Shown here piece after piece: positions 21,601 to 31,448 of a stretch of DNA of 64,000 bases (positions are counted from its first letter, which is position 1; each line of letters opens with the position of its first letter). The notes below the pieces were generated by a model. It did not search any database, was not told the DNA's origin, and saw only the letters and a program-made list of their open reading frames with translations. The DNA is from Modestobacter sp. DSM 44400 (GTDB lineage Bacteria > Actinomycetota > Actinomycetes > Mycobacteriales > Geodermatophilaceae): assembly GCF_900107175.1 (NCBI RefSeq), contig NZ_FNOZ01000014.1, positions 30,871 through 94,870 of the forward strand. The letters are read 5' to 3'. The position numbers and the translations under genes were made by a program.

Positions 21601-22608
21601 TCAGCGGACGATGACCGTGAACTCCGTCTGCGCGATGAACTCGCCGATCACCGGAGCGCCGGGGACCTCGCCGCCCAGCAGCAGCCCGCCGGAGGTCTGT
21701 GCGTCGGCCAGCAGCAGTGCCTCGTCCTCGCCGACCGCCGACAGGTCCGTGTGCGGCCGGACCCAGTCCAGGTTGCGCCGGGTCCCGCCGGAGACCCAGC
21801 CGTCGGCCAGCGCCTGCCGGGCCCCGGTCAGGTACGGGACGGCGGCTGCGTCGACGACGGCGGTCACCCCGCTGGCCCGGGCCATCTTGTGCAGGTGCCC
21901 GAGCAACCCGAACCCGGTGACGTCGGTGCCGGCGCGGATGCCCGCGGCCACGGCGGCCCGGCCGGCCTCGGCGTTGAGCGCGGTCATCGAGGCGACCGCC
22001 TCCGCCGACACCTCGCCGGTGTTCTTGTGCCGGCTGTTGAGCACGCCGACGCCGAGCGGCTTGGTCAGCGACAGCGCCGTCCCGGCCACCGCCGCGTCGT
22101 TGCGGATCAGCCGGTCCAGGTCGACCAGGCCGGTGACGGCCATACCGTACTTGGGCTCCGGGTCGTCGATGGAGTGCCCGCCGCCGACGTGGCAGCCGGC
22201 CTCGTGGGCGACCTCCAGCCCGCCGCGCAGGACCTCGGCGGCGAGCTCGGCGGGCAGCACGTCACGCGGCCAGCCCAGCAGGTTCACCGCAACGACCGGG
22301 GTGCCGCCCATGGCGTAGACGTCGGAGAGCGCGTTGGCCGCGGCGATCCGGCCGAAGGTGTAGGCGTCGTCGACCACCGGGGTGAAGAAGTCGGTGGTCA
22401 GCACCAGCCCCTGGCCGCCGGCGATCCGGACCACCGCGGCGTCGTCCCCGTCGTCCAGGCCGACGACCAGTTCGGCGGCCGGGTCGGTCGGCTCTGTGCC
22501 GGCGAGCCCGGCGACCACGGCTTCCAGCTCGCCGGGCGGGATCTTGCAGGCACAGCCGCCGCCGTGGGCGTACTGGGTCAACCGGACGGGGGAGGCGAGC
22601 GCGGTCAT
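21601..22608 (-). CDS. selD: Selenide, water dikinase
   Basis: A 335-residue enzyme that makes selenophosphate from selenide and ATP, the selenium donor for selenocysteine and selenouridine. The N-terminal active site reads GGGCACKIPP, with Cys19 and Lys22 matching catalytic Cys17 and Lys20 of the E. coli enzyme. Some organisms use selenocysteine at this Cys, but here it is a cysteine codon. ATP-binding LTTDFFTPVVDD and GRIAAANALSDVYAMGG follow. The ATG at 22608 gives the normal length. selA, selB and tRNA-Sec lie 4-9 kb away on the other strand. Confidence 0.95.
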   Translation of the reverse strand: MTALASPVRLTQYAHGGGCACKIPPGELEAVVAGLAGTEPTDPAAELVVGLDDGDDAAVVRIAGGQGLVLTTDFFTPVVDDAYTFGRIAAANALSDVYAMGGTPVVAVNLLGWPRDVLPAELAAEVLRGGLEVAHEAGCHVGGGHSIDDPEPKYGMAVTGLVDLDRLIRNDAAVAGTALSLTKPLGVGVLNSRHKNTGEVSAEAVASMTALNAEAGRAAVAAGIRAGTDVTGFGLLGHLHKMARASGVTAVVDAAAVPYLTGARQALADGWVSGGTRRNLDWVRPHTDLSAVGEDEALLLADAQTSGGLLLGGEVPGAPVIGEFIAQTEFTVIVR

Positions 22609-22621
22609 GACAGCACGGTAG

Positions 22622-22635
22622 GTCGTCCGGACGAC
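22622..22635. promoter_or_regulatory. 14-bp palindrome upstream of selD
   Basis: GTCGTCCGGACGAC is a perfect palindrome 14 bases upstream of the selD ATG. Its position suits an operator or a 5'-UTR hairpin. No regulator is known for it, and short G/C palindromes arise easily by chance. Confidence 0.3.
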
Positions 22636-22928
22636 GGTCGCCGCATCCCCGGTTCGGGACGGCGCTGGACACAACTGCATCTCGCGTTGCCGATCTGTGT
22701 CCGGGATCGCGTCCCGTGCCGTTATCTTCTGCCCGTGAGTACGCGCAACGGGGTGCGGGACGGCCGCGGCCCTCTCGTCGACCCCGCACCGGGTCGTCGT
22801 CGGAAGTTCGACCCATGGACACCTGACGGCGGTCCTGCGGCCCCGGCCGCCCGGCACGCTGCTCCACGGTCGGCCGGGACGTCCCCGGCGCGGGCAGGGG
22901 GGCGGTCCCGGATGGGTCTGGAGACGTC
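22636..22928. other. Divergent intergenic region between selD and the sugar ABC operon
   Basis: Holds the promoters for both directions. A relatively A/T-rich TATCTT (22723-22728) is a reasonable -10 for the rightward operon. It ends six bases before a GTG at 22735 that opens a 68-codon frame running into the permease start. That frame is Arg/Pro/Gly-rich without recognisable similarity and ends in TAG, so I do not call it a gene. Confidence 0.4.
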
Positions 22929-26303: not shown

Positions 26304-26399
26304 GGAGGCGTCAGGGTGTCTGGTGGCCCCCGCGGCCTCTAAAGCCGACGTGACCGAGCAGCTCGGTCAGGCGGGTTCGATTCCCGTCCGCCTCCGCCA
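26304..26399 (+). tRNA. selC: Selenocysteine tRNA with CUA anticodon (reads UAG)
   Basis: A 96-base tRNA with encoded CCA. The acceptor stem pairs GGAGGCG (26304-26310) with CGCCTCC (26389-26395), followed by discriminator G. The T arm has loop TTCGATT. The variable arm is an 8-bp stem with a 3-base loop (26351-26369), the hallmark of tRNA-Sec. The anticodon stem CGGC/GCCG encloses loop CTCTAAA, so U33 is followed by CUA at 26339-26341 and A37. Compared with E. coli selC loop CUUCAAA, the anticodon is CUA instead of UCA. It should decode UAG. It sits just upstream of a gene with an in-frame UAG and of selA-selB. Confidence 0.95.
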
Positions 26400-26605: not shown

Positions 26606-28282
26606 ATGACCGCACCTCCGCAGGCCGCCGGCACCGTCCACGTCGTCGACCCGTCCCCGCTGAACTGGCTTTTCATCACCTGGAACACCATGGAAGAGCC
26701 CATCCGGATCGACGAGGCCGGACGCGTCGTCTACTCCCTCGCCGAGTCCTCGGAATGGCTCGACGACCGGACCCTGGAGCTCCGGCTGCGCCGCGGGGTC
26801 CGCTTTCAGGACGGCGAGCACTTCACCGCCCACAACATCAAGCAGAACTTCGACGAGATGCAGCGCTGGGCGGCTCCCCACCCGCCGGGCACCTGGCTGA
26901 ACTTCCCACCGCAGTCCACCGCCGAGGTCGTCGACGACCACGTCCTGCGTTTCCACTTCCCCGGCCCGGACGGGCTGGCCATCGGCAAGTTCCGCGGCTT
27001 CCACGTCGCCTCCTCCGCCTTCTGGAACGGCAAGGACGCCCCCGGCTTCGGCTACAAGAAGTTCGGCTCGGGAGAGGGCCACTGGTAGGTGATCGACGAG
27101 CCGGGCCCGTGGGGCACCGGTCCGTTCACCCTGGTCCAGGGTGCTTCGTCGATCACCACCCGCAACGTCGTCATGAGCGCGGACCCCTACCGCGCGTCCT
27201 GGTTCATCGAGAGCGAGCAGCGTGATCCGCAGGTCGTGCTGGAGGCCAACCCCGACCACTGGAACCGCGCGGCCCGCGGCCCCCGCATCGAGCGGGCCGT
27301 GTTCCGCAACGACGTGACGCCGGACGAGGCGCTGCGGCTGGTGTGCGACACCGAGGGCGAAGTCGACATCGTCACCGAGGTGTCACCGGCGGACGCCCAG
27401 CGGGTGCAGGACTCCGCGCACGCCCGCCTGGTCGTCTGTGACGCCAACCGGGTCCTCGTCGGGATCCTCAACCGCAACAGCGACGCGCCGCTCGACGACC
27501 TCGGCGTCCGCCGCGCGCTGAACATGGCCATCGACCGGCAGGCGATCATCGAGCAGGGGCTGGCCGGGTATGCGTCGGTGATCCCGGCGCTGACCCCGAA
27601 CTGGTGCAGTGGCTTCCCCGCCGGCGCGGTCCCTTACGAGCTGGACGCGGCGAGAGCCCGCGAGGCGTTCTCCCGCGGGTCCTGGCCTGCGCGCCGGCCG
27701 CTGCGGATCGCCACGCCCGAGCCGTTCGCCGGGATCGCGCACATGGTGGCAGCCAGCATCCGCTCGACCCTGGACCTGATGGTGGAGGTCATCGTGGTGC
27801 CTCCGGACCAGGCCCCGGGCGGTGCCCGGGCGCTGGTGGAGAAGAAGCTCGACCTGCCGTGGGACGTGCTGATCCACGCCTGGTTCGACCTCTCCTCCGA
27901 GGCGCCACCCGCCGCGGTGCACCGGGAGTTCTTCGGGCTAGACGGCGCCTTTCGGGCCGGCCCGCCGGACGACGCCTTCGACGCGCTGTTCGACGAGATG
28001 AAGGTGCAGCTGGACGGCGGGGCACTGGTTGCGGTGGCCGAGCGGATCGACGCGTACGTGCACGACCAGGCGCTGGCGCTGTTCATCTGCGCCCCGCAGG
28101 CGCTGTACGCGGTGAACGAGCACGTCACGTTCTCCCCGTACAAGACGACCTTCGAGCTCGCCGAGGTCACCGTCGACGACCGGCACTGGTCGGTCACCGG
28201 CGGTGGAGCGGAGCTCGGCGCACGGACCGCACGGTCGCAGTCGAAGCCGGGCTTCGCCGGCGCGGCCGGCAACGCCTGCTGA
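26606..28282 (+). CDS. Family 5 solute-binding-protein-like gene with in-frame UAG (candidate UAG-coded selenoprotein)
   Basis: One frame reads 558 codons from ATG 26606 to TGA 28282 if the UAG at 27086-27088 (codon 161) is translated. Both halves are one SBP_bac_5-type protein: VRFQDGEHFTAHNIKQNF near residue 72, then SGEGHW-UAG-VIDEPGPWGTGPFTL and LDDLGVRRALNMAIDRQAI. No signal peptide or lipobox is present, so it may be cytoplasmic and not an ordinary transport receptor. The gene lies between tRNA-Sec(CUA) and selA, and a hairpin follows the UAG. I infer that UAG encodes selenocysteine. The alternative is a nonsense mutation leaving two dead halves. A terminator directly after the TGA shows that the full frame is the transcribed unit. 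Confidence 0.75.
27100..27121 (+). promoter_or_regulatory. SECIS-like hairpin downstream of the in-frame UAG
   Basis: In the mRNA GCCGG (27100-27104) and GCCC (27105-27108) pair with GGGC (27112-27115) and CCGGU (27117-27121), with one bulged A and apical loop GUG. The loop starts 20 bases after the UAG, and its first base is G. Both fit the usual bacterial SECIS rules: loop 16-37 bases from the recoded codon and a G in the first two loop positions. Hairpins are common in DNA this G/C-rich, so this supports recoding but does not prove it. Confidence 0.5.
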
Positions 28283-28289
28283 CGCCGGC

Positions 28290-28320
28290 CGGCCCGGGCG
28301 GCGGATCCCCGCCCGGGCCG
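28290..28320 (+). terminator. Terminator of the UAG-containing gene
   Basis: A 12-bp stem built from 28290-28301 and 28309-28320 (core GGCCCGGGCG / CGCCCGGGCC) with a 7-base loop, starting eight bases after the TGA. It separates this gene from selA, which has its own -10 box. Confidence 0.75.
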
Positions 28321-28348
28321 CCCTGCGCCGCTCCGGGCACCGACCTCC

Positions 28349-28362: not shown

Positions 28363-29691
28363 ATGACCGCCGACCCGAGCGCCGACCCCCGCCGACGGGT
28401 GCCGCGCACCGACACGCTGCTCGCCGAACCGCAGGTGGCCGCTGCCGCCGGCCGGCTCGGGCGCGAGCTGGTCAAAACGGCCGTGCAGACCGTGCAGACG
28501 CGGGTGCGCAGCGGTGACCTGCCCCCCGAGGACGCCGTCGCGGCCGTGCTGGCGGCGCTGCCCGGCACGGCCGGCAGCCTGCAGCCGGTGCTCAACGCCA
28601 CCGGCGTCCTGGTGCACACCAACCTCGGCCGGGCCCCGCTGTCGGCCGCGGCGGTCGAGGCGGTGGTCGCCGCCAGCGGCACCACCGACGTCGAGCTGGA
28701 CCTGGCCACCGGACGGCGCGGTCCCCGCGGCGAGGCGGCGCTGTCGGCGCTGCTGGCCGCCGTCCCCGCCGCCGAGGCCGCCCTCGTGGTCAACAACTGC
28801 GCGGCCGCCCTCGCGCTGGTCGCCACCTGCTTCTGCGCCGGCCGGGAGCTGGTCATCGCGCGCGGGGAGCTGGTGGAGATCGGCGACGGGTTCCGCATTC
28901 CCGAACTGCTCACCGCCACCGGGGCCCGGCTCCGCGAGGTCGGGACGACGAACCGCGTCGCGCTGGCCGACTACACCGCGGCGCTGACCCCGGACACCGG
29001 CGCGGTGCTCAAGGTGCACCCCTCCAACTTCGTCGTCCGCGGCTTCACCCGGGCCGTCGAGGTCGCCGAGCTGGCACCCGCGCTCGCCGGCACCGGCGTC
29101 CCGCTGGTCGCCGACGTCGGCTCCGGGCTGCTCCGCCCGCACCCGCTGCTGCCCGACGAGCCGGACCTGCAGACCGCTCTGGCCGACGGCGCGGACCTGG
29201 TGCTGGCCAGCGGCGACAAGCTGTTCGGCGGCCCGCAGGCCGGGTTGGTGCTCGGCCGCGCCGACCTCGTGCAGCGGTTGCGCCGCTCTCCGCTGTACCG
29301 CGCGCTGCGGGTCGACAAGACGACCCTGGCCGCGCTGGAGGCGACCCTGCGCGGACCGCAGCCGCCGGTTCACCAGATGCTCGACGCCGACCCAGACATG
29401 CTCCGGAAGCGGGCCAGGGCGCTGGCCGCCCGGCTGGTCGACGGCGGGCTGGACGCGGTCGCCGTCGCCTCCACCGCCCGGGTCGGCGGGGGAGGAGCCC
29501 CGGAGTTCGAACTGCCCAGCTGTGCCGTCTCGCTGCCTGCCGCCTTTGCCGAGCCGCTGCGCCGCGGACCGCGGCCGGTGGTCGGCCACCTCGCCGGGGA
29601 CCGCACCCTGCTCGACCTGCGCAGCCTGCTCCCGGCCCAGGACGACGCCCTGGCCGACGCGGTGCTCGCGGTAGCGCAGCGGTGGACGTGA
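28363..29691 (+). CDS. selA: L-seryl-tRNA(Sec) selenium transferase
   Basis: A 442-residue PLP enzyme that converts Ser-tRNA-Sec to Sec-tRNA-Sec using selenophosphate from SelD. The N-terminal tRNA-binding part ends at LNATGVLVHTNLGRAPLS. The PLP core contains VVNNCAAALALV, VADVGSGLL and the lysine loop ASGDKLFGGPQAGL, with Lys286 as the likely Schiff-base residue. Length is normal for the family. The ATG follows a -10 box without a Shine-Dalgarno sequence. It overlaps the selB frame at its 3' end. Since the tRNA here reads UAG, the enzyme must recognise the tRNA body and not the anticodon, as is known for SelA. Confidence 0.96.
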   Translation: MTADPSADPRRRVPRTDTLLAEPQVAAAAGRLGRELVKTAVQTVQTRVRSGDLPPEDAVAAVLAALPGTAGSLQPVLNATGVLVHTNLGRAPLSAAAVEAVVAASGTTDVELDLATGRRGPRGEAALSALLAAVPAAEAALVVNNCAAALALVATCFCAGRELVIARGELVEIGDGFRIPELLTATGARLREVGTTNRVALADYTAALTPDTGAVLKVHPSNFVVRGFTRAVEVAELAPALAGTGVPLVADVGSGLLRPHPLLPDEPDLQTALADGADLVLASGDKLFGGPQAGLVLGRADLVQRLRRSPLYRALRVDKTTLAALEATLRGPQPPVHQMLDADPDMLRKRARALAARLVDGGLDAVAVASTARVGGGGAPEFELPSCAVSLPAAFAEPLRRGPRPVVGHLAGDRTLLDLRSLLPAQDDALADAVLAVAQRWT

Positions 29692-29702
29692 CCGGCGCCG
29701 GC

Positions 29703-31448
29703 ATGGACGTCGTCGCCACTGCCGGGCACGTCGACCACGGCAAGTCCACGCTGGTCAAGGCACTGACCGGGATGGAGCCGGACCGCTGGGAGGAGGAGCG
29801 CCGCCGCGGGCTGACCATCGACCTGGGGTTCGCCTGGACGACGCTGCCTTCGGGTCGCCGACTGGCGGTCGTCGACGTCCCCGGGCACGAGAAGTTCGTC
29901 GGCAACATGCTGGCCGGCGTCGGCTCGGTGCCGGCCGCCCTCATCGTGGTTGCGGCGGACGACGGCTGGTCGGCGCAGACCGCCGAGCACGTCGCCGTCC
30001 TGGACGCCCTCGGCGTGCGGCACGGGCTGCTGGTCGTGACCAAGGCCGATGCCGCCGACCCGGCACCGGCGCTCGCCGACGCCCTGGACCGGCTGGCCGG
30101 CACGTCGCTGGGCAGACTGCCGGCCGTCGCGGCCAGCGCACGCACCGGCGCCGGCGTGCCCGAGGTCGCGGCGGCGCTGGAGTCGGTGCTGGCCGGGCTG
30201 CCCGCGCCGGACGTCACCGCGCCCGTGCGGCTGTGGGTCGACCGCGCCTTCACCATCCGCGGCGCCGGCACCGTGGTCACCGGCACGCTCGCCGCCGGCA
30301 CCGTCGCGGTGAGTGACCGGCTGGAGCTCGGCGGGCGGCCGGTGACAGTGCGGGGGCTGCAGTCCCTCGGCGAGGCGGTGCCGACCGCGTCGGCCACCGC
30401 CCGGGTCGCGCTGAACCTGCGCGGCGTCGCGGTGGAGGAGGTCGCCCGTGGCGACGCCCTGCTGACCCCGGACGCCTTCCGGCGCACCGACGCCCTCGAC
30501 GTCACGCTGGTCACGCCGGTCGAGGACCGGCTGCCGGCCGAGCTCGTCGTCCACGTGGGGTCGGCGACCGTCGCCGCGCGGGTGCGCCCACTCGACGGGT
30601 CGGCGCTGCGGCTGCGGCTGACCGAGCCGCTGCCGCTGCGGGTGGGCGACCGGCTGCTGCTGCGCGACCCCGGCACGCGCCGCGTGCTGGGCGCCGACGT
30701 GCGCGACGTCGACCCGCCGGAGCTGGGCCGGCGGGGGGCGGCCCGCACCCGCGCCGCCGAGCTCGCCGAACAGCCGCCGGGTGCGGGCGGGGCCCGCGCC
30801 GACCTGGCCCGGCGCCGGGTCGTGCGGCGGGTGGACTTCGTCGCGATGGGCTGGCCAGTGCCGCCCGAGGCGACGTCGACCGGGCCGTGGCTGCTGGCGC
30901 CGGGGCTGGTCGAGGAGCTCGCGGCCCGCGTGCTGCCGCTGGTGGCGGGCTACCGGAACCGGCTGCCGCTGGAGCCGGGGCCGCCGGTGGAGTGGGTGCG
31001 CCAGGAGCTCGGCCTGCCCGACGCCGAGCTGGTGGCCGGCGTCGTCCGGGCGCCACTGGCGCTGCGCGGCGGGCGGGTGGTGGTCGCCGGCGCCGGACTG
31101 CCGCCGGCGGTGCAGCGTGCCGTGGACGGCGTTCGGGCGCGACTGGCCGAGTCGCCGTTCGCCGCTCCGGAGGCCGGTGACCTGGCCGCCGCCGGGCTGG
31201 GTCCCCGTGAGCTGGCCGCCGCGGTGCGCGAGGAGCTACTGGTGCGGATCGCCGACGCCGTGTACCTGGCGCCCGGCGTCGAGGCAGAGGCGACGGCCCG
31301 GCTGGCGTCTGTGCCGCAGCCGTTCACCCTCAGCCAGGCCCGGACGGCGTGGGGGACCAGCCGCCGGGTCGCCGTCCCGCTGGCCGAGTGGCTCGACGCC
31401 CGCGGCGTCACCGAGCGGCTGCCGGACAACACCCGCCGACTGCGGTGA
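29703..31448 (+). CDS. selB: Selenocysteine-specific elongation factor
   Basis: A 581-residue SelB. The GTPase domain starts MDVVATAGHVDHGKSTLVK, with G3 DVPGHEKF and G4 VTKADA. Domains II and III follow, then C-terminal winged helices that bind the SECIS hairpin in characterised SelB proteins. It delivers Sec-tRNA-Sec to the ribosome at a recoded codon. SelB does not read the anticodon, so it can serve a UAG-decoding tRNA. The ATG at 29703 was chosen because SelB proteins start just before the ATAGHVDHGK motif. A GTG at 29682 overlapping selA is possible. The GNAT gene overlaps its stop by four bases. Confidence 0.95.
   Translation: MDVVATAGHVDHGKSTLVKALTGMEPDRWEEERRRGLTIDLGFAWTTLPSGRRLAVVDVPGHEKFVGNMLAGVGSVPAALIVVAADDGWSAQTAEHVAVLDALGVRHGLLVVTKADAADPAPALADALDRLAGTSLGRLPAVAASARTGAGVPEVAAALESVLAGLPAPDVTAPVRLWVDRAFTIRGAGTVVTGTLAAGTVAVSDRLELGGRPVTVRGLQSLGEAVPTASATARVALNLRGVAVEEVARGDALLTPDAFRRTDALDVTLVTPVEDRLPAELVVHVGSATVAARVRPLDGSALRLRLTEPLPLRVGDRLLLRDPGTRRVLGADVRDVDPPELGRRGAARTRAAELAEQPPGAGGARADLARRRVVRRVDFVAMGWPVPPEATSTGPWLLAPGLVEELAARVLPLVAGYRNRLPLEPGPPVEWVRQELGLPDAELVAGVVRAPLALRGGRVVVAGAGLPPAVQRAVDGVRARLAESPFAAPEAGDLAAAGLGPRELAAAVREELLVRIADAVYLAPGVEAEATARLASVPQPFTLSQARTAWGTSRRVAVPLAEWLDARGVTERLPDNTRRLR

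Follow-up and report, generated by a model that had tools for sequence, protein, structure and literature searches.

Can an in-frame UAG in the middle of an otherwise intact bacterial gene be read as an amino acid and, if so, as which one? The question is raised by a gene in a 64,000-nucleotide stretch of the genome of Modestobacter sp. DSM 44400, an actinobacterium of soil (contig NZ_FNOZ01000014.1, positions 30,871 to 94,870; hereafter the window). The gene lies at 26606..28282 on the forward strand and encodes a protein resembling the SBP_bac_5 solute-binding proteins; an earlier note, made from the letters alone, picked it out as a candidate UAG-coded selenoprotein. Sequence comparison and a structural model together indicate that the product is very probably a selenoprotein of 558 residues in which the UAG at 27086..27088 is read as selenocysteine (Sec), at residue 161, and which is cytosolic with a family-5 solute-binding fold.

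The frame from 26606 to 28282 contains a single internal stop, the TAG of residue 161 (in the context GEGHW-U-VIDEPGPWG), and is otherwise open to the final TGA. The read-through product matches Pfam SBP_bac_5 (PF00496) on either side of this stop, over residues 41-431 and with 130.3 bits (cut-off 32.4), and both findings bear out the earlier description of one continuous SBP_bac_5-like protein with no further damage. A terminator had also been claimed after the final TGA and this stands only in part: a strong GC hairpin is present on the forward strand (28283..28330; -38.4 kcal/mol) but there is no T-run in the sequence shown. To judge from the ratios of nonsynonymous to synonymous substitution rates (dN/dS) in 13 pairs, both halves of the gene are under purifying selection, with values of 0.06-0.22 in the first (residues 1-160) and 0.14-0.41 in the second (residues 162-530), below 0.42 throughout.

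As the earlier note had it, the gene is located between a tRNA able to read UAG and selA-selB. The tRNA (26304..26399, forward strand) matches the tRNA-Sec model RF01852 with 66.9 bits over 26304-26395, the CCA end being added by ARAGORN, and has the anticodon CUA; ARAGORN names it tRNA-Pyl (cta), which we take to be a consequence of the anticodon. Downstream on the same strand are selA (28363..29691, scanned from 28369; TIGR00474, 421.8 bits over a cut-off of 267.9) and selB (29682..31448, scanned from 29703; TIGR00475, 283.3 bits over 242.25), whilst selD is found on the reverse strand (21601..22857; TIGR00476, 385.5 bits over 125), the starts of selB and selD not being settled. The window genome therefore has a tRNA-Sec of matching anticodon together with SelA, SelB and SelD, the set by which we recognise a genome equipped to make such a selenoprotein. 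It also encodes a formate dehydrogenase (contig C98, locus L169, reverse strand) in which a TAG falls between NQARI and HSSTVPSLGTSFGRGG and is followed by a strong hairpin; this TAG we take, from the family, to be the Sec position of the enzyme. In section 17 of PMC5330540, UAG-coded formate dehydrogenase, UGSC-motif protein and AhpC are reported from the Geodermatophilaceae, the first two being attributed to Mukai et al. 2016. The idea that the Sec machinery is retained solely for the gene described here was rejected, as tRNA-Sec is present in 108 of 112 family genomes and the gene in 14, and the window genome has its UAG formate dehydrogenase.

The Geodermatophilaceae copies of the gene fall into two clades, A and B. 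Those of clade A with UAG are 79-89% identical to the window copy and have the cluster selD, tRNA-Sec, gene, selA, selB in all five mapped loci; those of clade B show 44-48% identity to it, lie away from the sel cluster and are also present in the window's own genome. Fifteen of the 17 family copies that span the Sec column carry UAG, across 12 genomes that all possess a CUA tRNA-Sec. One clade A copy (G436) has UGA, with a UCA tRNA-Sec and the same cluster order, and this pairing of codon and anticodon inside the same gene cluster is a point in favour of the Sec reading. The other (G029) has UAA plus a second in-frame stop, in a genome whose tRNA-Sec is UCA. UAA as a third Sec codon was considered and rejected: given that tRNA, the second stop and the weakest hairpin of 14, this appears to be a decayed gene. 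Anticodons were read in 53 of the 108 tRNA-Sec-bearing family genomes, 45 having CUA only, seven UCA only and one both. Two tRNA-Sec genes, a divergent UCA form (81.8 bits) and the usual CUA form, are found in G117 (L106, L166), where possibly both codons are in use or contamination is responsible.

Beyond the family, the gene is present in 24 of 39 Rubrobacterales genomes, with UGA in the column in 27 out of 27 copies. Plasmid pNYY1_1 of Methylobacterium radiotolerans carries a UGA copy directly upstream of selB (L155:9001-12499), for which no gene is annotated in PLSDB's incomplete table; no tRNA-Sec was found in the 19 kb of this plasmid inspected, and plasmid searches returned no other copy. 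In wider samples (E 1e-40), the gene was detected in 9/397 genomes of the order, all Geodermatophilaceae, in 1/394 of the class, this being the window genome itself, and in 24/396 of the phylum, namely the window genome and 23 from one other family. Because a stop recurs in one column across many genomes, the window UAG is more than a chance event. The earlier note had proposed looking for retention of UAG in related genomes, and it is retained, in step with the tRNA-Sec anticodon; conservation of the column and the anticodon match together support its central claim that the UAG codes for selenocysteine.

What occupies this column in proteins without the stop, and how have the genes been annotated? 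Cys is found in four relatives (P0124, P0125, P0142 and P0143), with the result that Cys, UAG and UGA, each named beforehand as favouring Sec, are all represented. Amongst 140 proteins compared, 115 start at residue 162 and six at residue 190, and the best 120 homologues listed are all annotated as C-terminal pieces. P0123, from another lineage, ends exactly at GEGHW, that is, at the stop column, and has an extra N-terminal region ahead of the solute-binding part. In a search with P0125, one of the Cys relatives, 80 of 119 proteins compared fall short of the column and 55 of these begin at the next residue; we infer that a stop precedes these fragments. Two records amongst the P0125 matches are marked partial and are named Nitrospira and Alphaproteobacteria. 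Separately, cytochrome c domains (PF13442, PF00034) form part of a fusion protein in 16 of the 120 P0125 relatives listed (P0143, P0145-P0151, P0153-P0159 and P0174), an unusual combination of the binding-protein fold and an electron carrier.

Decoding would be carried out by SelB and the CUA-anticodon tRNA-Sec encoded beside the gene, and may be aided by a predicted hairpin immediately downstream (27095..27126, forward strand) that resembles a bacterial selenocysteine insertion sequence (SECIS). The loop (27109-27111 in the window) starts 20 nt past the stop and is mostly GUG. In clade A UAG copies, synonymous change at conserved residues is 0.048 in the 15 codons past the stop against 0.222 (permutation p 0.003), and in clade B 0.126 against 0.294 (p 0.01). 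Amongst 33 distinct sequences, both partners of one apical pair have changed (from C-G to G-C), and the hairpin's covariation score was reached by none of 500 shuffles. An RNA signal after the UAG is plausible, then, but not proven.

A number of observations weigh against the Sec reading or parts of it. Within the clades, the 15-codon stretch ranks no better than seventh from the bottom amongst 507 and 341 windows, and the synonymous dip is not significant when the clades are pooled (p 0.15 and 0.48). Two of five pair measures, both-side changes and further pair types, are no higher than in shuffles, and the hairpin does not stand out in stability from synonymous recodings (mean z -0.29, 14 distinct sequences); thermodynamic proof of a SECIS was accordingly not obtained. 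In most secreted distant relatives (12/17 and 20/39) the column holds Gly rather than Cys, and isolated distant relatives have other residues. Gln or Trp there had been set against Sec in the earlier note: one of these isolated residues is indeed Gln, but Cys, UAG and UGA are also in the column. Some copies are broken, with a frameshift in G357, a deletion in G205, the UAA and further stop of G029 and, in the window genome's own second copy (L156:8728-10294), a frameshift near residue 332 although the UAG column is kept; a further internal stop is present in 3/27 Rubrobacterales copies. In Rubrobacterales, selB scores above its cut-off in 17/24 genomes with the gene versus 12/15 without it, and co-occurrence with selB was dropped as support since there is no association. 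Finally, the neighbouring genes vary between lineages.

Could the UAG simply terminate translation, with the next codon, GTG, starting a second polypeptide that then assembles with the first? In the window, GTG is directly 3' of the UAG, a purine-rich stretch lies a few bases upstream, and this is the start chosen by gene callers. However, just 8/27 Rubrobacterales copies have GTG directly behind the stop (GCG, GCC, GCA, ATA or GTA in the others), single-chain relatives with Cys or Gly are known, and plain termination leaves unexplained why the tRNA-Sec anticodon tracks the stop codon, all of which makes a split protein improbable. Still less probable is insertion of a different amino acid, whether pyrrolysine or one carried by an ordinary amber suppressor. 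ARAGORN's tRNA-Pyl label for the adjoining tRNA would fit this, but that tRNA scores as tRNA-Sec, PylS scores 22.5 bits in the window genome (cut-off 178.15), well short of what a pyrrolysine protein calls for, and the codon is UGA rather than UAG where tRNA-Sec is UCA, with Cys also in the column. A pseudogene, or a stop introduced by sequencing error, is hardly credible: whilst some copies elsewhere do contain frameshifts, deletions or further stops, the identical stop occurs in independent genomes with purifying selection on either side of it.

If the stop is indeed a Sec codon, which form came first? In a tree of 41 rows rooted at the midpoint, the 22 stop-bearing rows form one clade (100/99). 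Within it the UGA copy of G436 is sister to clade A's four UAG rows, and the plasmid copy sits on a long branch. As the G436, plasmid and Rubrobacterales rows are all UGA, UGA is likely to be ancestral and UAG derived, and the codon would have switched from UGA to UAG in Geodermatophilaceae along with a change in the tRNA anticodon.

As for what the protein does, the predicted structure has a full two-lobed fold; its closest counterparts include the nickel-binding protein NikA, with dipeptide, glutathione and opine binders matching equally well. By eye, no hydrophobic leader or signal peptide of the kind expected in an exported protein is seen in the window protein or the stop-bearing copies listed, so that the protein is likely to be cytosolic and departs from the usual exported type of solute-binding protein. 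It thus shares a Pfam match and a full fold with NikA, DppA and GsiB, but differs from them in its lack of a visible signal peptide, in its Sec codon and in being flanked directly, in the window, by tRNA-Sec and selA rather than by an ABC-type permease of its own. Sec161, predicted to lie in a loop ahead of the conserved PGPWGTGPF motif, probably acts near the ligand cleft: a small ligand might be captured there and Sec161 might act on it as nucleophile, redox group or soft metal ligand. We envisage that the protein binds its ligand in the cytosol and that Sec reacts with this ligand or coordinates it, although any particular chemistry is distinctly doubtful. The C-terminal tail (residues 538-558; 28217..28279, forward strand) is modelled as disordered (predicted local distance difference test score, pLDDT, below 50) and ends in GNAC, and the terminal Cys is present in 118 of 120 homologues listed and near-invariant in the window's clade. 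Most speculatively, this Cys could in that clade form a selenylsulfide with Sec161.

Outside the window's lineage, neighbourhoods were examined for marker genes. In Rubrobacterales, a LarAH gene is upstream at 12/18 loci, with an HbpS-like gene downstream at 13/18 and a glutathione S-transferase (GST) gene at 5/18, several of these loci being cut by contig ends and the HbpS-like and GST genes being assigned by Pfam. At L007, the LarAH protein matches LarAH14/15/16 with 868 bits (cut-off 740). Many of these loci (L198-L214, L007) have LarAH, the Sec gene and the HbpS-like gene in one orientation. The ten clade B loci include a zinc alcohol dehydrogenase of the formaldehyde dehydrogenase type at four (one 6 kb off), an MRJP-domain gene at three and a DsbA-like gene at two. 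The Rubrobacterales neighbours, a nickel-pincer 2-hydroxyacid isomerase (LarAH14/15/16) and the HbpS-like protein, point to a 2-hydroxyacid or nickel-linked compound as ligand. Since neighbours differ between lineages, however, the ligand is a guess, and a single pathway common to all lineages was rejected for the same reason. The Sec protein might instead carry or chaperone nickel or some other soft metal, as NikA amongst the closest folds and the adjoining LarAH enzyme might suggest; but dipeptide, glutathione and opine binders match no worse, and the window's clade has sel genes and no LarAH-type gene as neighbours, leaving a metal carrier possible though unlikely.

Is this family new? UAG decoding as Sec is already known, and the Geodermatophilaceae selenoproteins of PMC5330540 share with the window protein the CUA tRNA-Sec, the UAG Sec codon and the bacterial family; they belong to other protein families, however, no solute-binding protein being mentioned in that section. 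SaoB and SaoX of the SAO system, ABC-type substrate-binding proteins of other families predicted to carry Sec, are already listed in a 2026 review (PMC13188914). Their motifs in its table, CUxxT and UxP, differ from the HWUxID of the window protein, and their models (NF040727 and NF040735) are not among the NCBIfam matches of that protein at E 0.001. The review catalogues 119 selenoprotein families, and there is no SBP_bac_5 protein in its Table 1. Nor is such a family found in passages of PMC9312934, PMC10778597, PMC5029168 and PMC1794560, by term search in PMC12013277, or in the titles listed by literature searches. Within the literature searched, the protein family appears to be new.

The fullest account that we would offer, evenly balanced in our view between right and wrong, is of cytosolic selenoenzymes with a periplasmic-binding-protein fold that make up an old and unlisted family in Actinomycetota and Proteobacteria, derived from an importer that lost its export signal and gained Sec at the cleft edge; tRNA and codon would then have switched from UGA to UAG in Geodermatophilaceae, and in the window's clade Sec would pair with the C-terminal Cys tail. 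Gene callers have split this predicted selenoprotein family in two. If true, Sec on a binding-protein fold without an export signal would place selenium chemistry in a new setting, and a single gene that exists in UGA and UAG forms, each beside a tRNA-Sec of matching anticodon, would offer a natural before-and-after of the reassignment of a stop codon.
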